Source of the DNA: Desulfurobacterium sp. TC5-1
GTDB lineage: Bacteria; Aquificota; Aquificia; Desulfurobacteriales; Desulfurobacteriaceae
Assembly (NCBI RefSeq): GCF_000421485.1
Contig: NZ_ATXC01000001.1
Coordinates: forward strand, 985,087 to 1,049,086
Direction of reading: 5' to 3'
DNA length: 64,000 nucleotides
The notes beneath the pieces were generated by a model that was not told where the DNA came from, made no database searches, and was given only the letters and a program-made list of their open reading frames with translations. This document shows, piece after piece, positions 2,032 through 55,192 of the stretch (positions are counted from its first letter, which is position 1; the number at the start of each line of letters is the position of its first letter). The position numbers and the translations under genes are program-made.

Positions 2032-2983
2032 TATTAATAATTCTCCTTATCACGTAGGGTTTTTTACTCTGAGACTCAAAATAGATACGCATGAGAATCT
2101 CACTGATAATACCTGTTGTTAACATTTGAAGTCCGGAGATGATGAACATAACCGATATAATAAGAAGAGGTCTGCCTCCTATTGGATGCCCCATAATCTT
2201 TATACCCATAAGGTAGGAAAAAAAGACAAGACCAATAAACAGAAGCGTTAAACCTATACCGCCAAAAAAGTGAATCGGTTTCTGCATATACTTTTTAACA
2301 AACCAGACATAAAACAGGTCAACAATTACCTTAAAAGTCCTTGAAATACCGTACTTTGACTTACCATACTTCCTTGGATGGTGCTTTACGGGAATTTCTA
2401 TAATTTTATCCGGAGAAGTAACAGTAGAAACAACGGCAGGTATAAACCTGTGCATTTCACCGTAAAGCCTGACCCTCTTTATCACAGAACTTCTGTAAGC
2501 CTTGAGAGAACACCCGTAATCGTGAATTTTTATACCTGTCAACCTTCCTATCAACCAGTTTGCTATCCTGGAAGGAAGTTTTCTTGAAATCGCAGCGTCC
2601 TTTCTATTTTTTCTCCAGCCGCTCACAACATCATAGCCTTCTTCTATCTTCTCAAGAAGTCTCGGTATATCATCAGGATCATTCTGAAGGTCACCATCCA
2701 TCGTTATAATCACGTCACCACCGGCAAGATCCATTCCAGCCATCATCGCCGGTGTTTGACCAAAGTTTCTTGCAAACTCAATAACTTTTACCTTTTTATC
2801 TTTTGCGGCAATTGCCTCAAGCTTTTCAGCAGTTTTATCCGTACTGCCATCATCAACAAAAATTATCTCATAGTCAAGAGGCAGGGAATCAACAACCTTC
2901 TTAATACGCTGATAAAGTTCATTAACGTTATCCTCTTCGTTGTAAAGGGGAACAACTATGGAAATCTTTTTTACACCTTTCAT
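2018..2983 (-). CDS. GT2 glycosyltransferase, polyprenyl-phosphate sugar synthase type (DPM1/ArnC/GtrB-like)
   Basis: 321 residues. The N-terminal GT-A domain opens with ISIVVPLYNEEDNV, has VDDGSTD for nucleotide binding and the metal-binding TMDGDLQNDP. A cytoplasmic linker with HRFIPAV is followed by two C-terminal transmembrane segments (about residues 230-300). This is the plan of enzymes that move a sugar from a nucleotide donor to undecaprenyl phosphate on the cytoplasmic face. It overlaps the ArnT-like gene upstream (4 nt) and the flippase-like gene downstream (14 nt), giving the complete logic of charge, flip and transfer. The sugar cannot be read from sequence. Confidence 0.9.
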   Translation of the reverse strand: MKGVKKISIVVPLYNEEDNVNELYQRIKKVVDSLPLDYEIIFVDDGSTDKTAEKLEAIAAKDKKVKVIEFARNFGQTPAMMAGMDLAGGDVIITMDGDLQNDPDDIPRLLEKIEEGYDVVSGWRKNRKDAAISRKLPSRIANWLIGRLTGIKIHDYGCSLKAYRSSVIKRVRLYGEMHRFIPAVVSTVTSPDKIIEIPVKHHPRKYGKSKYGISRTFKVIVDLFYVWFVKKYMQKPIHFFGGIGLTLLFIGLVFFSYLMGIKIMGHPIGGRPLLIISVMFIISGLQMLTTGIISEILMRIYFESQSKKPYVIRRIINSEKE

Positions 2984-4539
2984 CTTTTCTCTCCTGAAGT
3001 TATTATTACCAACCTGTGTTTTGTGAGAAGCTCCTGCCTGACATCAACTACCCTGTACGGAACTTTCAACCTTTTGAGCCTGTTTTCCCTCGTAACTATC
3101 AGAACATTCTTATCTTTAAGGAGTTCTGCAGCTTTTCTAAAATCTATCTGTGGAATCTTCCCTTCACCGTAATAATAGACAATCTCAGGACTTGTATAGG
3201 CAAGCGAATAGACAGAGAGATTCGGATTCTTTAACTTCATGTGTCTTAATTCTTTTCCAATTAAAGGCTTTGCCCTGTAAGGTTCAAGAACGGGAAGGGT
3301 AACCCATTTAAAGAGAATCATCGTTGATAAAAATCCGTAGAGGAGCGGTTTGTACGGCTCTTTGCTTCTAAAGATGAAATAGAGAGAAACGGCAATAGGA
3401 ACAACCATGACTGCTGCAACTAAGGGCAATTTTTTTACAACAAGTGCAGCAGGAACGGCAATAATCAAAAAAAATAGAAGAACCGCTGTTAGATAGTAAG
3501 GAAGCTTTTCTCTATAATTTCTAACATAATAAGCGGTTAAGATTGCAAACGCAGGAAAAGACGGAAGTAAGTAATGTGCAAGTTTAGTGTGAGCTATTTG
3601 AAAAAATCCACAAATAATTAGAAACCATACAGTAGCAAACATTAAAAGGTCATCAACATATATCCTCTCTCTATCCTTCCAGAACTTATAAACTGCAAAT
3701 ATGAAAACTACAGAAAACGGAAGGAACATCCATGGATAGTTGACAAAATAGTACCACCACTCGGTTGGATGACCCGGAATTTTAGACGTAAATCTCTCTA
3801 TGTTGTGGAAGATAATGAAATCTTTAAAGAAAAGGTAACCGTGCTTCTTCAAAATTGCCGCATACCAGGGGGCAACTATGACTGTGAAAATGGCAAAGCC
3901 GGAAAACCACGGGATTTTTTTAAATGTTTTTATCAAATCACGTCTTAAAATCAGATAAACAACAGCAACAAGACCGGGAAGAGCAAGTCCAACGGGACCC
4001 TTAGTTAACGTTGCAAACCCTGCCGCCGCAAAAGCCGCTAAATAACACCGTTTCCTGTTTTCATGATAGCCGTTATAAAACGCCATAAGAGAAGCGGCTA
4101 TGAAAAATGTTAAAACTATATCAGGCATAGCCGCCGACGACATCACGATAAAATCAAGAAGAGAAAGTAATATAAGCGAAGACCAAAAAGCAAACTCCTC
4201 ATCCTTCCACTTTTTAATCCAGAGATACAAAAGTAAAACCAGCGCTACACCAAAAAGAGAAACGAAGAATCTTCCACCAAACTCATTAACACCAAAAAGT
4301 TTATAACCTGCAACGATGAGCCAGTAAATGAGAATCGGCTTGTCAAAGCGATATTCGTAGTTGTAGTAAGGGGTTATATAGTCACCACTTTTAACCATCT
4401 CGTGAGCAGCTTCAAGGTACTTTGGCTCATCCTTGTCAAAGGCTGAGTAAAAGCCGTTTGGAACAACAAGTAAAAGGATCGAAACAAGAGCTAAAATTAG
4501 AAATTTCTTGTCTTTTAATATCTTTAATATCTTCCTCAT
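2980..4539 (-). CDS. ArnT/PMT-like GT-C glycosyltransferase (GT83/GT39)
   Basis: 519 residues from the ATG at 4539, chosen over an upstream in-frame start because GAGAGG lies just ahead of it. There are about 12 membrane segments and a soluble C-terminal domain. The first periplasmic loop carries the acidic pair that defines GT-C enzymes (AFDKDEPKYLEAA), followed by RFDKPILIYW. Enzymes of this type take a sugar from a polyprenyl-phosphate carrier and add it to lipid A or protein in the periplasm. Its coupling to the GT2 gene suggests one pathway, such as modification of lipid A with an amino sugar or uronic acid. The acceptor is unknown. Confidence 0.85.
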   Translation of the reverse strand: MRKILKILKDKKFLILALVSILLLVVPNGFYSAFDKDEPKYLEAAHEMVKSGDYITPYYNYEYRFDKPILIYWLIVAGYKLFGVNEFGGRFFVSLFGVALVLLLYLWIKKWKDEEFAFWSSLILLSLLDFIVMSSAAMPDIVLTFFIAASLMAFYNGYHENRKRCYLAAFAAAGFATLTKGPVGLALPGLVAVVYLILRRDLIKTFKKIPWFSGFAIFTVIVAPWYAAILKKHGYLFFKDFIIFHNIERFTSKIPGHPTEWWYYFVNYPWMFLPFSVVFIFAVYKFWKDRERIYVDDLLMFATVWFLIICGFFQIAHTKLAHYLLPSFPAFAILTAYYVRNYREKLPYYLTAVLLFFLIIAVPAALVVKKLPLVAAVMVVPIAVSLYFIFRSKEPYKPLLYGFLSTMILFKWVTLPVLEPYRAKPLIGKELRHMKLKNPNLSVYSLAYTSPEIVYYYGEGKIPQIDFRKAAELLKDKNVLIVTRENRLKRLKVPYRVVDVRQELLTKHRLVIITSGEKR

Positions 4540-4626
4540 GTAAACCTCTCTATAGTCTGAAAACGGAACTGATGTAATTATAACCGAGATAGTATAATTC
4601 AACGGGAAATATTATGGAGGTTTGAA

Positions 4627-4896
4627 TTGAAATTCAAGAAGCTTCTTAAGTGTTCTAACTGCGGAAACATAGGAGAGTTCGAATACATCGGATCAAGGAA
4701 CTTGAATAGAAACGGTGAAGTGAAAGAGATAGTGGGCGATAAAGAACTGTGGGTAAGCTATTACAAATGTCCAAACTGCAACATTATAGATATAGAGATG
4801 CATCCGTCAGGAGAAAAACCCGACATACCGGAAGAATTTTTCAAAGAGGTGCTGATTGATGAAAAAAGTGAAGAAGAAACTTCCAGCGATAGATAG
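4627..4896 (+). CDS. Small zinc-ribbon protein of unknown function
   Basis: 89 residues starting at TTG, supported by GGAGG (4616-4620) six bases upstream. Two CxxC pairs (CSNCGN near residue 9 and CPNCN near 49) flank about 35 residues and should bind one zinc. The tail is acidic and serine rich. Its 3' end overlaps the start of the membrane glycosyltransferase gene by 38 nt, so the two are translated from one message. No function is recognised; a regulatory or chaperone role for its partner would be a guess. Confidence 0.75.
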   Translation: MKFKKLLKCSNCGNIGEFEYIGSRNLNRNGEVKEIVGDKELWVSYYKCPNCNIIDIEMHPSGEKPDIPEEFFKEVLIDEKSEEETSSDR

Positions 4897-6403
4897 AAAA
4901 ACCCTGAATCTGTTTTTAATCATGCTCTTTCTTGCAGGAACGGTGAACCTCTGGCTTTTAACACTCCATCACGAAGAACCGAGGCGGGGTATCGTTGCTC
5001 TTGAAATGCTGTTCAGACACAACTTTGTTCAGCCAACTGTACTGATGGTTCCCTACTTTAAAAAACCACCATTACATAACTGGATAACCATTCTATTTGC
5101 AGGGTTCAACCCTCACTGGATAAACGAATTCACACTGAGATTTCCATCACTTGTAGCGACAGGTCTAACCGCTCTCTTTCTCTACTACTTTGTAAAAGAA
5201 AAACTCGATGAAAGAAGAGCTGTCTTTTCATCAATAATATTTATGACAACGTGGACAGTATTAATAGGTTACTCAACCAAATGTGAACCGGATATGCTGT
5301 TTACTTTATTTACATTTCTTTCCATAAGCCTGTGGTACCACTTTTTTGACAAAAATAGAAAATTCATTGCCTGGACTGTGGGATATTTCCTTGCATCTCT
5401 TGCACTTTTAACAAAAGGACTACCGGGAATTCTTTTCTTCATCATTTCCTATATAGTGGTATTGTTTTCAAGAAAAGAGCTGAAAGAACTCCTAACACTT
5501 CAGCACATAGCAGGAATAGTAATAGGACTTATGCCATTTTTTTTATGGGTTATGGCAGTGTCTCCGGAAAAGGCGGTTTTAACACTATGGCACGAAGCGG
5601 TAAGGAGAACTGCGGTAGACAACCCTGTAACAAAGACATTAAAGGGCATAATCCTGTTCATTCCAAGGTTTATACTTGCCCTATTTCCATGGTCACTATT
5701 TGTCATCTATGAAATAATAAAGGATAAAGGCAGGGTAAAAGTTATTGAAAATCCATTCATGAAAGAGATAGCTTTCATAATAATAGCAAATATAACCGTG
5801 TATCTTTTCTCACCCGGAACAAGAATGAGATATATAATTCCGCTTATACCGTTTATATCTATCCTGTTAGCAGAAATTTTAAAAGATAAAAAAGTCAATC
5901 CTCAGAGGAGCATATCAAACATCCAGTTTTTAATGGATATCCTTCTATTTTTAGGAATTATTACAACAATATGGCTGACACTTCATGCAGAAATAGCTCT
6001 AAACTCTACAATTTTCTTCCTCATAGTGGCTTACTTTATCTATTTTTACGCAATGAAAAGGATAGATGTAACAAACTTTATCCTCATGGCAGGTTGCACA
6101 CTCTTTATAATTAGAGGATTTTATAGCGGTTACTATCTATCAATAGCTGAATTCAAATATCCAAAATATAAAAAAGCAGCCTGGGAAATTTCCACAATTA
6201 CAAAAGGGGATAAACTATCAACGCTGATACCGGAACTGAAAACGGGATTCTACATCGAGAAATTTAGACAACAGCCTTTACCACTCAAAAGAAAAACAGA
6301 ACTGGAGAAAGGTGAATTCTTTATCACGGAAAAACCTTTTGACAAGCAGGTAAAAGAGTTTAAATTGGGCAACAGGGTTCTCTACCTATGCAAAAAAGAA
6401 TAA
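4859..6403 (+). CDS. Second ArnT/PMT-like membrane glycosyltransferase (GT-C)
   Basis: 514 residues. The ATG at 4859 is preferred to the TTG one codon earlier; GAGGTG ends 8 nt upstream. The N-terminus has one membrane span followed by the periplasmic catalytic loop with HHEEPRRGIVALEML, the acidic motif of GT83/GT39 enzymes, then PYFKKPPLHNW. Around ten further spans and a short soluble C-terminus follow. It is divergently oriented to the first ArnT-like gene, separated by only about 90 bp that must hold promoters for both. It probably uses a polyprenyl-phosphate sugar, perhaps from the same GT2 enzyme. Confidence 0.85.
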   Translation: MKKVKKKLPAIDRKTLNLFLIMLFLAGTVNLWLLTLHHEEPRRGIVALEMLFRHNFVQPTVLMVPYFKKPPLHNWITILFAGFNPHWINEFTLRFPSLVATGLTALFLYYFVKEKLDERRAVFSSIIFMTTWTVLIGYSTKCEPDMLFTLFTFLSISLWYHFFDKNRKFIAWTVGYFLASLALLTKGLPGILFFIISYIVVLFSRKELKELLTLQHIAGIVIGLMPFFLWVMAVSPEKAVLTLWHEAVRRTAVDNPVTKTLKGIILFIPRFILALFPWSLFVIYEIIKDKGRVKVIENPFMKEIAFIIIANITVYLFSPGTRMRYIIPLIPFISILLAEILKDKKVNPQRSISNIQFLMDILLFLGIITTIWLTLHAEIALNSTIFFLIVAYFIYFYAMKRIDVTNFILMAGCTLFIIRGFYSGYYLSIAEFKYPKYKKAAWEISTITKGDKLSTLIPELKTGFYIEKFRQQPLPLKRKTELEKGEFFITEKPFDKQVKEFKLGNRVLYLCKKE

Positions 6404-6441: not shown

Positions 6442-7470
6442 TTGAAAACCGCTACCTTTCGAGTGTTTAGATTTAATCCTGAAACAGACAGAAAGCCTCA
6501 ATACCAGGATTACGAAATTCCTATCACAAAAGGAATAACAGTTCTTGAAGGATTAACATACATAAAAGATAACATAGATCCCACACTCGCTTTCAGGGCT
6601 TTCTGCAGAAGCGGAATATGCGGTTCGTGTGCCGTAAACATCAACGGGAAACCTCGCCTTGCATGTAAAACACCTATTGAAAAAATCATGGAGGAGTTTA
6701 GTTCTAAAACTATTATTATAGAACCCCTCTCAAGATTTAAAATCATAAAAGACCTTGTCGTTGACACGGAAGGTAAAAAAGAAACGATAAAACGCTTTAA
6801 CCTGTGGCTTGAGGAAAAAGAGCCTCCCAGAGATGCAGAATTTACCGTCTCACCTGAAGAGGTAAAACAGTACGAGAAAGAAACAGACTGCATCCTATGC
6901 CTTGCCTGTTGCAGTGTTTGTGAAGCGTTAAAAGAAAACATTCCATTCTCAGGTCCTTTTGCGTTTGTCAGAACCTTCAGGTTTCTGTCAGATTCAAGAG
7001 AAAAGGAAGAGATAAAAGAGAAAAGACTTGAAATAGCACTTAACGCCTCCGTATGGTCCTGCCTTCAGTGTCAGAAGTGCGTTGCAGTCTGTCCAAAAAA
7101 CATTGCACCTGCAGATGATATACAGAAAGTTAGAAGAGCAATCGTAAGAAGCGGGAAGAAAGAATCTCCTGGTGCAAAGAAGCTCTCCCACTACCTTAAC
7201 TGGATATACGCAACAGGACAGATTAACCGCCTATTTTTGCCGGCTGATGTTTACAACAGTGAAAAAGCTGTAAAAGAGTTTATAAAAACGTGCAGAGAAC
7301 ACGGCATTGAAGTGTGGGACATTCCACACCTTCCCGACGGATTCCTGGCGCTGAGAGACCTTATAATAAGGGCACTGGTGGAAGAAGGGAACATTGAAGC
7401 AATAGACTTTAAAAAGATACGGAAAATAGACGAAAAGATAGAAGCACTCCTTAAAGGAGAAGAGAAGTGA
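6442..7470 (+). CDS. frdB: Fumarate reductase/succinate dehydrogenase iron-sulfur subunit (TfrB N-half type)
   Basis: 342 residues from a TTG start with AGAGGTG upstream. The N-terminal plant-type ferredoxin domain holds a [2Fe-2S] site (C55, C60, C63, C75 in CRSGICGSC ... PRLAC). The C-terminal domain has CILCLACCSVC and CLQCQKCVAVCPKN for the other clusters. The protein is about 100 residues longer than common SdhB. The next gene encodes an HdrB-like protein overlapping by 4 nt; in methanogen thiol:fumarate reductase these two parts are fused as TfrB. In Aquificota a soluble multi-subunit fumarate reductase works in the reductive TCA cycle, and this pair likely belongs to it. The flavoprotein gene is not in the window. 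Confidence 0.88.
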   Translation: MKTATFRVFRFNPETDRKPQYQDYEIPITKGITVLEGLTYIKDNIDPTLAFRAFCRSGICGSCAVNINGKPRLACKTPIEKIMEEFSSKTIIIEPLSRFKIIKDLVVDTEGKKETIKRFNLWLEEKEPPRDAEFTVSPEEVKQYEKETDCILCLACCSVCEALKENIPFSGPFAFVRTFRFLSDSREKEEIKEKRLEIALNASVWSCLQCQKCVAVCPKNIAPADDIQKVRRAIVRSGKKESPGAKKLSHYLNWIYATGQINRLFLPADVYNSEKAVKEFIKTCREHGIEVWDIPHLPDGFLALRDLIIRALVEEGNIEAIDFKKIRKIDEKIEALLKGEEK

Positions 7471-8291
7471 GAAGAATTGGATTTTATAGAGGCTGCTGTT
7501 TTCAGGGACTTGATTTCATCCTGTTTGAAGTCATAAAAAACGTACTCAACAGGCTTAATGTCGAACTTCCCGAAGTGAGAAAGACCGTGTGTTGCGGCGG
7601 AAATGTCATTGATGAAGAGAGCAGATTTCTATCGGTTTTAATTAACGGCAGAAACATGGCCGCTGCGGAGAAAGAAAACCTTGATCTGTTAATAAGCTGC
7701 AACACCTGCTTCATGGTTATAAACAGAGCGAAAAAAGTTCTTGATGAAAATGAAGAAATAAAAGAAAAGATAAACAGAATCCTTAAGGAGGAAGAGCTCA
7801 CCTACACCGGCAACCTTAAACTCTGGCACATTTTACCCTTCCTGACACGAAAAATTGGTTTTAAAGAAATAGAAAGAGAAGTAAGGAGGAAGCTTCCCGT
7901 AAAAATGGCACCTTTTTACGGATGCCACCTGAGATATCCTGAAAAGGTCATTAAAGACGGGGAACTTGAAAAGCTTATAGAGGTATGTGGGGGCGTACCA
8001 ACAGAGTTTGAAGAATCAAACACATGCTGCGGCTACCATGCAATATATACAGACAGGGCAACTGCTCTTAAAAAAATTAAAAAGATTGTTGAAAGTGCGA
8101 AAGAAGCCGGAGCAGAAGTAATAGTAACACCATGCCCCTTATGCTTTAAAGCTTTTGATCTCTATCAGGCAGACGCAAAAATAAAAGAAAAACTACCTGT
8201 CCTATTTTTACCGGAGATGGTAGCCCTTGCTTTTGGAATGGATGAAATAGAATCAGGGATAAAGTACCACAAAATCCCTGTAGAGATATAA
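7467..8291 (+). CDS. HdrB-like CCG-domain protein, probable fumarate reductase subunit
   Basis: 274 residues from GTG, overlapping the FrdB stop by 4 nt (GTGA). Two cysteine-rich CCG domains are visible: first GCCFQG, TVCCGG and SCNTC; second YGCHLR, NTCCGYH and PCPLC. In HdrB such domains hold the noncubane [4Fe-4S] clusters that cleave or form disulfides; in succinate:quinone reductases of the E type a similar protein (SdhE) anchors the enzyme to the membrane. No membrane span is seen. Together with the FrdB protein it looks like a split version of TfrB. Whether the electron partner is a thiol, quinol or NADH-linked subunit is open. Confidence 0.85.
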   Translation: MRRIGFYRGCCFQGLDFILFEVIKNVLNRLNVELPEVRKTVCCGGNVIDEESRFLSVLINGRNMAAAEKENLDLLISCNTCFMVINRAKKVLDENEEIKEKINRILKEEELTYTGNLKLWHILPFLTRKIGFKEIEREVRRKLPVKMAPFYGCHLRYPEKVIKDGELEKLIEVCGGVPTEFEESNTCCGYHAIYTDRATALKKIKKIVESAKEAGAEVIVTPCPLCFKAFDLYQADAKIKEKLPVLFLPEMVALAFGMDEIESGIKYHKIPVEI

Positions 8292-8314
8292 AAACCCCGC
8301 CCTTAAAAGGCGGG
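8292..8314 (-). terminator. Intrinsic terminator of the 26-codon gene
   Basis: CCCGCC (8296-8301) pairs with GGCGGG (8309-8314). Read on the minus strand the stem is followed by GTTTTTATATC, a proper U-tract; on the plus strand no T-run follows. It therefore ends the minus-strand microprotein transcript, six bases after its stop codon. Confidence 0.75.
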
Positions 8315-8319
8315 AACCG

Positions 8320-8400
8320 TTAATCCTTAATGGGACCAACTATAGCTATGAAAGCCACCAAAATTCCCCACGCCTTAGCTGCAAGAGCAAGAGCATCCAT
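8320..8400 (-). CDS. 26-residue hydrophobic microprotein
   Basis: A 26-codon reading frame too short for usual gene callers. It begins MDALALAAKAWGILVAF and ends VGPIKD: one hydrophobic segment of about 18 residues with a single lysine and tryptophan, acidic at the start and charged at the end. It is supported by GGGGAGG six bases before the ATG, a sigma-70-like promoter 32 bp upstream and a terminator directly after the stop. This complete, stand-alone unit argues strongly for a real gene. It resembles in size single-span accessory subunits such as CydX or KdpF, but no family is recognised. Confidence 0.7.
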   Translation of the reverse strand: MDALALAAKAWGILVAFIAIVGPIKD

Positions 8401-8432
8401 TTTGAACCTCCCCATCTTCTGGTATTAATTGT

Positions 8433-8461
8433 AATTTACCAGCTATTCTTATATATGTCAA
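8433..8461 (-). promoter_or_regulatory. Sigma-70-type promoter of the microprotein gene
   Basis: On the minus strand TTGACA (8456-8461, perfect -35) is followed after 17 bp by TAAATT (8433-8438, 4 of 6 for -10). The transcript would start near 8426 and carry a leader of about 25 nt with the SD. Confidence 0.65.
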
Positions 8462-8502
8462 ATATTATGGTTGAAATAAAAAAGAAAGAAAGCTTTTATC
8501 TA

Positions 8503-10953
8503 TCAAGCAATTTCAACAAAGTTTTCATTTCCCTTAAAGCGGTACTTTATTAAATCCTTAAGGTCATCAAAACCTTCAAGGTTCGGATTTTTCTCAACAA
8601 ACTCAAAAGCATCTTCTCTTGCCATCTTTAAAAGTTCAAAGTCCCGCCTTAAATCCGCTATTTTAAACTCACCTATACCAGACTGCCTTGTTCCCATAAG
8701 TTCTCCGGGACCTCTAAACATAAGGTCCGCCTCTGCAACCTTAAAACCGTCTGTCGTGGCTTCAAGGACTCTCAAACGTTTTATCGCATCTTCACTTACG
8801 GTTCTTTTTGTTATGAGAAAACAGAAAGACTGCCTGTCACTCCTCCCAACTCTGCCTCTCAACTGATGAAGCTGGGCAAGCCCGAACCGTTCAGCATGTT
8901 CAATTACCATAACAGTTGCCTCAGGAACATCAACACCAACTTCTATAACAGTCGTTGAGACAAGCACATGAAACTCACCGGACTTAAATTTTGACATAAC
9001 TTCATCCTTCTCTTCCTGTTTCATCCTGCCGTGAAGAAGCCCAACGGAAAAATCTTTAAGCTTCTCACTCCAGAAGTGAAACATCTCTGTTGCTGCCTTA
9101 AGTTCAATCTTTTCAGACTCCTCAACAAGCGGATAAACAATGTATGCCCTGTTCCCCTTCAAAAGCTCTTTTCTTAAAAAAGAAACTACCTTTTCCATCT
9201 CATCATCAAAAACAATCTTTGTTTTCACGGGTTTGCGTCCTGCTGGCATTTCATCTATAACAGAAACATCAAGATCTCCATAGGCGGTAAGGGCAAGAGT
9301 CCTCGGTATAGGCGTCGCTGTCATAACAAGAACATCCGGACGGCTCCCCTTATTTTTAAGTTCCGCTCTCTGCTTGACGCCAAACCTGTGCTGTTCATCA
9401 ATAATAACAAGACCTAAATTTTCAAACTCCACCTTTTCCTGAATAAGAGCGTGAGTGCCAACAATCACCTTAAAATAGCCCTTTCTTATCGCTTTGAGGG
9501 TAGTCTCTTTAGCTTTCGGCGTCATGCTGCCTGTCAAAATTCCAACAGGAATACCAAAGTGAGAGAAAAACTCCTTAAACTTCTTAAAGTGCTGCTTGGC
9601 AAGAATTTCCGTCGGTGCCATAACCGCAACCTGATATCCACTCTTTACAGCAAGATAGGCAGCAGCTGCAGCAACAACCGTTTTACCACTACCAACATCT
9701 CCCTGAATCAGGCGGTTCATAGGTTTTTCACTCTTCATATCCGCTACTATTTCCTTTAGAACTCTCTCCTGAGCACCAGTTAGACAAAATGGCAGATTCT
9801 TCTTAAATTCGTCCAACATCTTTTCCGTTACAGGAAAACCTATACCCTTTTCTTCCTTTATACGTCTTCTCACAAGGGCCAATGCCACCTGGAACAGGAA
9901 AAATTCATCGTATATCAAACGCTGCTGATAAGCCGTCTTGAACTCCTGAAGTTCTTCAACAGGTGATGAAGGAAAGTGAACCTCCCATATTGATCGAGAT
10001 ATAGAAGGCAACTTTCTCTTTTTTACTATTTCTCCTGGAAGATACTCCGGAAAACGGAGAAGTGTTTTCTTCACAACAAAGGCTATATCTTTTCTTACAA
10101 GGTTCTGCTTCAATCCCTCCATTAGATGGTAAACAGGCAGTATAACGCCAACCTTTGAATAACTCTTTTTCTCTTCAAAAATCTCAACTTCTGGATGAAC
10201 CATGGTGAAAGAAAGACCACTCCTTTTAACTTTACCGTAAGCTACCACATCCTTTCCCAACTCTCTGGCCTGAGAAAAGAGCTTTTTGTAAAACCCAAAA
10301 ACTCTCTGCTGCAGAAAGAGAAGCGTTACCTTCCCGTGCCTATCGTAGAGTATAACTTTCAAAAGCTTTTTTCCTCTTTTAGTAACCGTATCTACAATCC
10401 CTGCAACCTTTCCTTTTACGAGGGCAGTTTCTCCATCTCTCAGGAGATTTAGAGGCGTTATAGTCGTCCTATCTTCATACCTGAAAGGAACATAAAAGAG
10501 AACATCTAAAATGGTGTTAAGACCCAACTTTTTTAACCGTGAAATGGCGTATTTGTTCAACCCCTTCACCGTCTCCGGCGGCTGGAAAAAAGCTTTTAAA
10601 GGATACTTTTCCGCTTCCTCTACGAATCCTGAAGAGGATGAGGATACAATCTTTTCTAACTTTTTTTTCTGAACCTCTCTTTCTATCTCTTCAAGAGAAA
10701 ACCTCAAAACAAAAACTGTATGAAGTTCTTTAATAAGCCGCTTCCTATCACTATCAGAAAGGTACCTGTAACCCTTCAAAAACTTCTCGGCCTTTTCAAC
10801 AAAAGAGATTCTCTTTTCTGAAAGAAAAGGTTTTAACTTTGAAAACATTGCAAGGAGAGCTTTATCAGGATCTCTAACCCTATCAAAGTATCTAAAATCC
10901 TCTTTTACAAGAAGGGTAAGCAACCTTTTTATGTTCTCCAGGGTTTCCCTCAT
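8503..10953 (-). CDS. recG: ATP-dependent DNA helicase RecG
   Basis: 816 residues, longer than E. coli RecG (693) because of an extra helical N-terminal region of about 130 residues, as in Thermotoga-type RecG. It is followed by the wedge (OB-fold) domain and two helicase domains: Walker A GDVGSGKTVV, DEQH box (VIIDEQHRFG), motif III TATPIPRTLA and motif VI with QLRGRVGRSD. RecG drives branch migration and fork reversal at stalled replication forks. It is transcribed away from the TPR lipoprotein gene, with 66 bp between the starts. No terminator with a clear stem is seen downstream. Confidence 0.97.
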   Translation of the reverse strand: MRETLENIKRLLTLLVKEDFRYFDRVRDPDKALLAMFSKLKPFLSEKRISFVEKAEKFLKGYRYLSDSDRKRLIKELHTVFVLRFSLEEIEREVQKKKLEKIVSSSSSGFVEEAEKYPLKAFFQPPETVKGLNKYAISRLKKLGLNTILDVLFYVPFRYEDRTTITPLNLLRDGETALVKGKVAGIVDTVTKRGKKLLKVILYDRHGKVTLLFLQQRVFGFYKKLFSQARELGKDVVAYGKVKRSGLSFTMVHPEVEIFEEKKSYSKVGVILPVYHLMEGLKQNLVRKDIAFVVKKTLLRFPEYLPGEIVKKRKLPSISRSIWEVHFPSSPVEELQEFKTAYQQRLIYDEFFLFQVALALVRRRIKEEKGIGFPVTEKMLDEFKKNLPFCLTGAQERVLKEIVADMKSEKPMNRLIQGDVGSGKTVVAAAAAYLAVKSGYQVAVMAPTEILAKQHFKKFKEFFSHFGIPVGILTGSMTPKAKETTLKAIRKGYFKVIVGTHALIQEKVEFENLGLVIIDEQHRFGVKQRAELKNKGSRPDVLVMTATPIPRTLALTAYGDLDVSVIDEMPAGRKPVKTKIVFDDEMEKVVSFLRKELLKGNRAYIVYPLVEESEKIELKAATEMFHFWSEKLKDFSVGLLHGRMKQEEKDEVMSKFKSGEFHVLVSTTVIEVGVDVPEATVMVIEHAERFGLAQLHQLRGRVGRSDRQSFCFLITKRTVSEDAIKRLRVLEATTDGFKVAEADLMFRGPGELMGTRQSGIGEFKIADLRRDFELLKMAREDAFEFVEKNPNLEGFDDLKDLIKYRFKGNENFVEIA

Positions 10954-51904: not shown

Positions 51905-54421
51905 ATGTCTGAAAAGAGAGTTTATCTATTTGACGGAACAAGCTTTGCATACAGAGCGTTCTATGCAATAAAAGGGCTAACAACATCTTACGGATTTCCA
52001 ACAAATGCAATCTACGGCTTTGCAAGAATGTTCCTTAAACTATTCAAAGAGATAAAGCCGGAATACGCTGCGGTAGCATTTGATGTAAGTAGAAAAACAT
52101 TCAGAGAAAAAATATCAGCAGACTACAAGGCCAACAGAAAACCCACTCCTGACGACTTCAAAGTACAACTTCCCTACATAAAAAAGTTCCTTGAATGCTT
52201 CGGTGTACCGGTGATTGAAAAGGAAGGATACGAAGCTGACGATATTCTTGGAACAATAGGAAAAAAACTTGCAGAAGAAGGATACGAAGTAATAATTGTC
52301 TCTCCCGATAAAGACATCAGGCAGTTGATTGAAGAAAACGTTCACGTACTTTCAATATCACCACAGAAAAAAACAGAAACTTTATACACACTTGAAACTT
52401 TCAGAGAAAAGTTCGGGTACGAACCGGGACAAATTCCCGATATTTTTGGCCTTGCCGGCGATACAAGTGACAATATACCGGGTGTCCCGGGAATTGGCGA
52501 AAAGACCGCAACGAAATTGATAAAAGAATTCGGTTCTCTTGAAAAGTTGTACGAAAACCTTGACAAACTTCCATCTAAAAGAAAAAAAGCCCTTGAAGAC
52601 TATAGAGATCAGGCATTTATGAGCAAGAAACTTGCTACGATAGATAAAAACGTCCCGATAGACGTTGAACCCGGAAACCTAAAACTAAAAGATCCTGACG
52701 TCGAATGCCTATTTAAACTTTTTAAAAAACTTGAGATGAAATCCCTGATAAAAGAGATAAAAGAATTCTTCCCCAACATCCAGTTTCAGGGAAAAAATAT
52801 AGAAAAAACACAAGAAACGGATAAAAAAAGTTTTTTAAAATTCCTGGAATCAGATGACCTTTTCTCAAAGAAAGAGTGTGCAATAGTAGTCAATGAAAAT
52901 CTTTTCGCCTCTGTTGACAGACACTTCAGCCAGATAGATAGAGAAACTTTTAAAGAAATATGCAAAAAGAGTGGAAAAATATACACGTTTAACCTAAAAG
53001 AGCTTTATCACCTTACAGGAACAACCGGAAAACATAAACAGTTTTTTGATATATCTATAGGTGAATATCTTCTTAATTCTATTCAAAAAGACTATTCACC
53101 AGAAACAATACTAAAAAAATATCTCGAAACTTCAGATATAGAACCTGTTGAAAGATATTCTCACCATATAATAGACGTCGGAAAAAAGGTAATAGAAAAC
53201 CTTAAAAGAGAAAACCTTCTAACTTTATACGAAAAGATAGAACATCCCCTTATAGAAGTTCTCTATTATATGGAAAAACGGGGTGTTTTATTTGATAGAA
53301 AATACATGACAACCTTAAAAAGCAACTTTTTATCGAAAATGCAACGTTTAAAAGAAGAAATTTTTTCAATAGCCGGCGAAAGTTTCAATCTGAATTCACC
53401 GAAGCAGCTTGCAAAAATACTCTTTGAGAAACTTAAAATAAAACCCGTGAAAAAGACACGGACGGGATACTCCACAGATGTTGAAGTCCTCACAACACTT
53501 GCATTAAACGGCTATGAAATCGCTGAACTTATACTTGAATACAGAAAATATTCAAAACTGTTAGGCACATTCATAGACGGCATAACAAAACACATGGACG
53601 AAGAAGGCAGAGTTCACACAAACTTCATACAAACAGGAACAGCAACGGGAAGATTATCAAGTGCCGAGCCAAATCTACAAAATCTGCCAGTTTCTGACGA
53701 GATATCCAGACAGATAAGAAACGCAGTAATCGCACCAGAAGGATATAAACTGATCTGGGCAGACTACTCACAGATAGAGCTCAGAGTCTTAGCTCACCTT
53801 TCAGGCGACGAAAGGTTAGTTGAAGCCTACAAAAAAGATAGAGACATCCACACTGAAACTGCCTCCATACTCTTTGGAACTGAACCTGAAAATGTATCAC
53901 CTGAAATGAGAAAAGTGGCAAAGATGGTGAACTTTGGAATCATATACGGAATGAGTCCTCAAGGACTATCCCAGCGACTTGGAATAGGATTTAACGAAGC
54001 GAAAAACTACATCGACAGTTACTTTGCAAAATTCCCAACGGTAAAAGAGTTTATAGAGAAAACACTATCGGAAGCTTACGAAAAGGGGTATGTCAGAACG
54101 CTATTTGGCAGAAAAAGACCTGTTCCGGAACTTAAAGCGAAAAATAAAAACATAAAGCAGTTTGGTGAAAGGGCAGCCTTCAACGCAGTCATTCAAGGAA
54201 CAGCAGCCGATATAATGAAGATGGCAATGATAGCACTGTTTAAAGAGTTTAAAAATAAAGATAGCTTTCTAACTCTTCAGATTCACGATGAAATAATAAT
54301 GGAAGCACCCGAAACCAGGGCAAAAGAAATAGAAAACAGAGTAAAAGAGATAATGGAAAATATTGCCAACCTTGACGTTCCCTTAAAGGTTGACATTAAA
54401 AGCGGGAAGAGATGGGAGTAG
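51905..54421 (+). CDS. polA: DNA polymerase I
   Basis: 838 residues. The 5' nuclease domain (1-290) has YLFDGTSFAYRAFYA, YEADDILGTI and GDTSDNIPGVPGIGEKTA. The middle domain lacks the acidic residues of 3'-5' exonuclease, as in Taq polymerase, so proofreading is not expected. Polymerase motifs: A (WADYSQIELRVLAHLSGD), B (RKVAKMVNFGIIYGMSPQG), C (LQIHDEIIMEAP). It fills gaps and removes primers. It is convergent with the RNase P RNA gene, the stop touching the 3' end of that RNA. Confidence 0.98.
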   Translation: MSEKRVYLFDGTSFAYRAFYAIKGLTTSYGFPTNAIYGFARMFLKLFKEIKPEYAAVAFDVSRKTFREKISADYKANRKPTPDDFKVQLPYIKKFLECFGVPVIEKEGYEADDILGTIGKKLAEEGYEVIIVSPDKDIRQLIEENVHVLSISPQKKTETLYTLETFREKFGYEPGQIPDIFGLAGDTSDNIPGVPGIGEKTATKLIKEFGSLEKLYENLDKLPSKRKKALEDYRDQAFMSKKLATIDKNVPIDVEPGNLKLKDPDVECLFKLFKKLEMKSLIKEIKEFFPNIQFQGKNIEKTQETDKKSFLKFLESDDLFSKKECAIVVNENLFASVDRHFSQIDRETFKEICKKSGKIYTFNLKELYHLTGTTGKHKQFFDISIGEYLLNSIQKDYSPETILKKYLETSDIEPVERYSHHIIDVGKKVIENLKRENLLTLYEKIEHPLIEVLYYMEKRGVLFDRKYMTTLKSNFLSKMQRLKEEIFSIAGESFNLNSPKQLAKILFEKLKIKPVKKTRTGYSTDVEVLTTLALNGYEIAELILEYRKYSKLLGTFIDGITKHMDEEGRVHTNFIQTGTATGRLSSAEPNLQNLPVSDEISRQIRNAVIAPEGYKLIWADYSQIELRVLAHLSGDERLVEAYKKDRDIHTETASILFGTEPENVSPEMRKVAKMVNFGIIYGMSPQGLSQRLGIGFNEAKNYIDSYFAKFPTVKEFIEKTLSEAYEKGYVRTLFGRKRPVPELKAKNKNIKQFGERAAFNAVIQGTAADIMKMAMIALFKEFKNKDSFLTLQIHDEIIMEAPETRAKEIENRVKEIMENIANLDVPLKVDIKSGKRWE

Positions 54422-54742
54422 GCAGGCCCGTAAGCCGGGTTCTGTTTTAGAGAGCCATTTATCTAAGCGGCTTACCCGTCGGCATCGGGCGGGCAACCCT
54501 CAAGCGCCGACCTATTCAGCCTTGCTCCGGGAGGGGGTTACCGTGCCCTCTCTCCTCGCGGAAAGAGGCGGTGGTCTCTTACACCACCTTTTCACCCTTA
54601 CCCCGAAAATCGGGGCGGTCTATTTTCTGTGGCCCTGTCCGCAGGGTTTCCCCTGCCTGGCTCAACGCCAGCTCCCCGCCCTGTGGAGCCCGGACTTTCC
54701 TCTTCCTTTAAAGGAAGCGGCTCTCCAGCCTACCTCTCCCGG
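54422..54742 (-). ncRNA. rnpB: RNase P RNA (type A)
   Basis: The minus strand shows the universal core: GAGGAAAGTCCGGGCTCC near the 5' end (P4 5' half) and ACAGAACCCGGCTTACGG near the 3' end, with intervening ACAGAAA, AGGGTGAAAAGG and GGTAAACCCC-like sections. It is the catalytic RNA that matures tRNA 5' ends. The 5' end is set from the promoter, 3' end by the terminal stem (GGGCCTGCC). There is no clear terminator before polA's last codons. Confidence 0.95.
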
Positions 54743-54749
54743 CATATAG

Positions 54750-54778
54750 AATATAAGACTATTCAAAAGATTATACAA
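54750..54778 (-). promoter_or_regulatory. Promoter of rnpB
   Basis: TTGTAT (54773-54778), 17 bp, TATATT (54750-54755) on the minus strand, ending seven bases before the start of the RNA. It is downstream of the tRNA block, so rnpB can be made alone or by read-through. Confidence 0.65.
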
Positions 54779-54831
54779 TCTCATGGACGATTTATACGTG
54801 ATATGCGATGGATATTAAAGAAGTATATAGA

Positions 54832-54908
54832 TGGTGGGCCTGGGAGGACTCGAACCTCCGACCGTCCGGTTATGAGCCGGATGCTCTAACCAACTGAGCT
54901 ACAGGCCC
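54832..54908 (-). tRNA. tRNA with CAT anticodon (Met, elongator; Ile2 possible)
   Basis: Cloverleaf with GGGCCTG acceptor, D loop AGTTGGTTA, anticodon stem CCGGC?/loop CTCATAA and T loop TTCGAGT; CCA is encoded. The CAT anticodon reads AUG, or AUA if modified to lysidine; the D-stem and the 5' GGGCC end do not decide. It is not an initiator: the three G-C pairs at the base of the anticodon stem are absent. Confidence 0.9.
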
Positions 54909-54916
54909 TTATTCGT

Positions 54917-54992
54917 TGGTGGAGCCGGTGGGATTCGAACCCACGACCTTCAGACTGCCAGCCTGACGCTCTCCCAGCTGAGCTACGGCCCC
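54917..54992 (-). tRNA. tRNA-Ala (GGC)
   Basis: Starts GGGGCCGTAGCTCAG; loop CTGGCAG has anticodon GGC. The acceptor stem has G3-U70, the alanine identity pair. CCA encoded. Confidence 0.95.
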
Positions 54993-55030
54993 GAATCTAC
55001 AAAACAGATTCGGCTATTATATGACAAATT

Positions 55031-55108
<78 letters not shown>

Positions 55109-55116
55109 GCTTAAAA

Positions 55117-55192
<76 letters not shown>

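Follow-up and report, generated by a model that had tools for sequence, protein, structure and literature searches.

An orphan 26-codon gene, conserved within one bacterial genus and predicted to encode a single-helix membrane protein

Results

The stretch of DNA analysed here (the window, 64 kb in all, from Desulfurobacterium sp. TC5-1) carries on its minus strand, at 8461-8295, a complete small transcription unit with a promoter, a Shine-Dalgarno (SD) sequence, a 26-codon frame and a terminator. The promoter (8433-8461) consists of a -35 element TTGACA (8461-8456), a 17-bp spacer and a -10 element TAAATT (8438-8433) preceded by a TGn extended element, and it scores 10/12 in a scan against the consensus. 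The 5' leader of the mRNA is predicted to be only about 26 nt long, and the SD, read from the sequence as GGGGAGG, lies at 8407-8413. The microprotein gene, which encodes MDALALAAKAWGILVAFIAIVGPIKD, occupies 8320-8400 (ATG at 8400-8398, TAA stop at 8322-8320) and is followed by an intrinsic terminator hairpin at 8295-8315, with 9 pairs, 6 of them G-C, a T-rich tail and a predicted stability of -14.1 kcal/mol. From promoter to terminator the unit is compact, at about 130 nt. The -35, the -10 at 17 bp, the SD, the 26-codon frame and the terminator had been proposed in the original prediction, as signals lying between two convergent genes, and all were confirmed. A 31-aa version of the protein, starting at a second in-frame ATG (8415, five codons upstream of 8400), was rejected as not conserved: that ATG lies across the SD and two of four relatives lack it, which leaves the 26-codon start as the one that is conserved.

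The microprotein gene lies between the convergent ends of a plus-strand gene for a CCG (cysteine-rich) domain protein (7467-8291, Pfam CCG, 3.9e-20) and minus-strand recG (8503-10953, Pfam RecG_wedge, DEAD, Helicase_C and RecG_dom3_C). recG is upstream and co-directional, and the microprotein gene has a promoter of its own. The CCG gene overlaps a gene for a 2Fe-2S/4Fe-4S subunit (6442-7470, Pfam Fer2_3, 6.3e-36, and Fer4_8, 1.3e-09); together the two (6442-8291) resemble parts of a split enzyme of the fumarate or heterodisulfide reductase type, with no flavoprotein gene directly beside them. Elsewhere in the window are two divergently oriented PMT/ArnT-like membrane glycosyltransferase genes (2980-6403) and, on the minus strand at 54415-55192, RNase P RNA (class A) with a cluster of four tRNAs, as identified by Rfam.

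How unusual is such a set of signals by chance? A promoter or a terminator alone, within 1.6 kb, is unremarkable: a simple consensus scan found 2 promoters against 2.9 expected and 1 terminator against 1.8 expected. The combination is another matter. When the whole window was scanned for frames of 15-60 codons with an SD, a promoter of at least 10/12 and a terminator, all in the correct order, only this location was returned, matched by two overlapping frames. The same scan gave 6 matches in 400 Markov-shuffled 64-kb windows, about 0.015 per window, a result that is supportive only, as the thresholds were chosen with the case already known; the comparison with relatives is therefore the stronger test. 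For this window it was fair to call such support rare in a frame of this length, as the original description did, but small membrane proteins are a familiar class.

When 21 related genomes were searched at the DNA level, the region turned up solely in three others of the same genus. Using tblastn with the peptide, a check that had been suggested at the outset, we recovered an orthologue that is full length and free of stops from each of the four genomes of the genus (G000, G001, G002 and G003) and from none of the 18 other genomes of the family. The peptide is MDALALAAKAWGILVAFIAIVGPIKD in G000 and G001 and MEALALAAKAWGILTAFIAIVGPLKDE in G002 and G003, with 23 of 26 residues identical between these two clades. 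At the DNA level the clades differ at 19 of 78 bases, 15 of the 19 in codon position 3 (p=3e-6), and within clades position 3 takes 7/7 differences in one (p=2.5e-4) and 3/3 in the other, all synonymous, counts that rest on few independent events because the four genomes form two close pairs. The suggested Ka/Ks comparison gave a dN/dS of about 0.05-0.09 between clades, and among the six frames that of the microprotein has the lowest dN (0.11) and the highest dS. When the same changes were placed randomly in 20,000 trials, they never produced as few as 3 amino-acid replacements, and 56% of trials created a stop codon. An open frame overlapping on the opposite strand was also considered and rejected, with a higher dN (0.19 vs 0.11) and a start that is not kept.

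These comparisons bear directly on whether the locus might instead specify a small non-coding RNA (sRNA) in which a short frame occurs by chance. Its compact promoter-terminator layout would suit an sRNA, and one might then expect relatives with broken frames and retained signals. We looked for these and found none: the frame is intact, free of frameshifts, in all four genomes. The differences between relatives are found in the leader and at synonymous positions of the frame, the protein is conserved, no Rfam family reaches its gathering threshold, and the sole weak match, to anti-hemB (16.6 bits against a gathering threshold of 49.5, E 0.13), is at chance level. The codon pattern and the absence of Rfam matches rule the sRNA reading out for practical purposes, and we regard it as very improbable. 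Because the frame is intact, the differences are synonymous and the signals are kept in relatives, we take the locus to be a gene for a protein and not an sRNA. On this comparative evidence it is almost certainly protein-coding, and the codon pattern indicates that selection acts on the protein, not the RNA. The isolated microprotein gene that was first proposed thus stands, with intact orthologues in four of four genomes, purifying selection, and a conserved promoter and terminator hairpin.

The signals around the frame have diverged to different degrees. The 29-bp promoter block occurs once in each of the four genomes and, allowing up to 3 mismatches, at no further site in them. Its spacer (8439-8455) has changed at 4 of 17 positions, vs 15 of 26 third codon positions (Fisher p=0.03), a conservation that may reflect the extended -10 element or a regulator site. 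The SD is identical in G001 and is the weaker GGGGGTT in G002 and G003, and the leader, from promoter to SD, is not alignable between clades. At the corresponding position, each of the three other genomes has a terminator hairpin that differs in sequence but is similar in predicted stability (-13.4 to -18.3 kcal/mol).

The CCG gene adjoins the microprotein gene in all four genomes and is the sole neighbour kept in all of them. In G002 and G003 a divergent ABC transporter gene, with homologues of only about 33% identity in G000 and G001, lies directly upstream, and recG is about 5 kb away. The microprotein gene thus remains whole in both clades despite the change of gene upstream of it, as an independent unit. 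The block between recG and the microprotein gene in G002 and G003 (L072, 2721-7595 in G003) holds PMT-like, PAP2-like, 359-aa and ABC transporter genes, the PMT-like and PAP2-like names having been assigned by eye in G003. The ABC and PAP2 genes are without a close counterpart in G000 and G001, a clade-specific insertion or loss.

Beyond the genus, tblastn and profile HMM searches of 136 genomes of the phylum found no orthologue; the weak matches that they returned were short and local, and most lay within longer frames or in short frames that are unrelated. Of eight pattern matches in GTDB, seven prove unrelated when their translation context is considered, and the eighth is the G002 orthologue itself. 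The peptide matched nothing in phages, plasmids or IMG/VR, no Pfam, NCBIfam or PHROGs family at E<=10, and no PDB sequence, in keeping with the original statement that it belongs to no known family. In other genera we recognised no diverged copy of the gene at the orthologous CCG and recG loci. One of these loci (L056, in G010) carries, at most 0.9 kb downstream of recG and on the opposite strand, a hydrophobic 36-aa frame, MNESLQLAIGIFGILVVGIAFTYFISVVLKDVWGSK, which has an SD and is possibly another small membrane protein, unrelated to this one. The microprotein is a new orphan family, restricted to its genus, within the well-known kind of small membrane proteins; its gene may have arisen in this genus or may have been lost outside it.

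The predicted product is hydrophobic. Residues 3-21 have a mean Kyte-Doolittle hydropathy of 2.29 (2.03 in G003) over a 19-residue window, a hydrophobic segment within the 15-30 aa expected of small single-span membrane proteins, which have fewer than 60 aa in all; the peptide carries a net charge of 0 to -1 and has a low hydrophobic moment (0.24-0.26). AlphaFold2, run on the 34-residue stop-to-stop frame, predicts one continuous helix (core pLDDT about 87-90, pTM 0.38), a model that adds little beyond 'helical'. The only variable positions are 2 (D/E), 15 (V/T) and 24 (I/L) together with an extra C-terminal E, all conservative save V/T, and Lys9, Trp11, Gly12 and Gly22-Pro23 are invariant in the four genomes. 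The overall picture is of a single hydrophobic helix in which a buried lysine never varies.

Discussion

Having found that a 26-codon frame is maintained as a protein across the genus, the next question is what so small a protein might do. We propose that the monocistronic gene encodes a protein that would insert into the inner membrane as one helix (residues ~3-24) and there serve as a small accessory subunit or regulator, bound to some larger membrane protein or complex. The invariant Lys9 within the helix and the AKAWG stretch would be the likely contact points. This is the reading that we favour, held with about as much belief as doubt. Small single-span bacterial membrane proteins such as AcrZ and the CcoQ/CcoS class are well documented (survey PMC10903887), and the peptide is like them in having fewer than 60 aa and one hydrophobic helix, in being intergenic and easily overlooked, and in being conserved between species. 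It is unlike them in being restricted to one genus and without similarity to any family searched.

Another possibility is a stress peptide that resembles type I toxins or depolarises the membrane, slows growth and is held in check at the level of RNA or transcription. DinQ of E. coli, a 27-aa single transmembrane peptide of a type I toxin-antitoxin-like system (PMC3567139), is the closest point of comparison: the two are alike in length, in having a single hydrophobic helix predicted to span the membrane, and in lysine(s) towards one end. Read-through from the convergent CCG gene would, moreover, yield a transcript antisense to the microprotein gene. Against this, the gene is single copy in each genome and keeps a stable genomic position, the peptide matched nothing in phages or plasmids, its net charge is near neutral and its hydrophobic moment is low. 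Nor did we find an antisense RNA promoter in the window, with no sigma-70-like promoter on the plus strand between 7600 and 9200; G003 has a weak 9/12 promoter-like site on the strand opposite the gene. The predicted leader is short and unconserved, and so gives no hint of the leader-based RNA control that type I toxins typically have. A toxin is thus less likely than an accessory subunit or regulator, and on balance we think it unlikely.

If the peptide is indeed an accessory subunit or regulator, a tentative candidate for its partner is the convergent CCG-domain redox protein. In the narrowest form of this idea the peptide would act specifically on the adjacent CCG-domain/iron-sulfur reductase, as its membrane tether or regulator, anchoring an otherwise peripheral enzyme. 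Enzymes with CCG and Fer2_3/Fer4_8 pairs are known without classical membrane anchors, and the neighbouring genes are just such a pair; convergent adjacency to the CCG gene is also kept in four of four genomes while the other neighbour differs. But the microprotein gene sits on the opposite strand with a separate promoter, and CCG homologues occur in 22 of 22 family genomes while the peptide is found in just four, all of this genus. With four close genomes, furthermore, linkage can scarcely be told from inertia, and the shared adjacency could be leftover synteny. We therefore view a dedicated tether as doubtful. More doubtful still is the proposal that it is a newly evolved, lineage-specific single-helix anchor, acquired by the genus, that tethers or gates the convergent CCG/Fe-S reductase.

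A different kind of membrane partner is suggested by PmrR, a membrane peptide that inhibits LpxT (PMC8129183). Like PmrR, the peptide is encoded by a tiny gene with its own promoter, opposite its neighbour's strand, and it might by analogy inhibit a lipid-modifying PAP2 phosphatase or transferase. The ArnT/PMT-like glycosyltransferases nearby in the window would fit such a role, as would the PMT-like protein and the 186-aa PAP2-like protein (both named by eye) within 5 kb in G003. Unlike in the PmrR case, two of the four peptide-carrying genomes lack this candidate partner: at E<=0.001, neither G000 nor G001 has a homologue of the PAP2-like protein. Because both of these genomes keep the peptide without it, a PmrR-like role acting on the G003 protein is largely refuted, and we give it the least credence of the readings considered here.

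The general phenomenon of small membrane proteins is well documented, and in that sense the surprise is moderate. What stands out is how unusually clean the case is: in a thermophile lineage that branches deeply, an orphan gene too short for the length cut-off of gene finders passes a test for selection at the codon level. Its peptide represents a sequence family that none of the libraries searched contains. In its hot-vent Desulfurobacterium-type host, the peptide is almost unchanged within one genus. Its partner, if found, would reveal how a 26-residue helix peculiar to one genus comes to be fixed.
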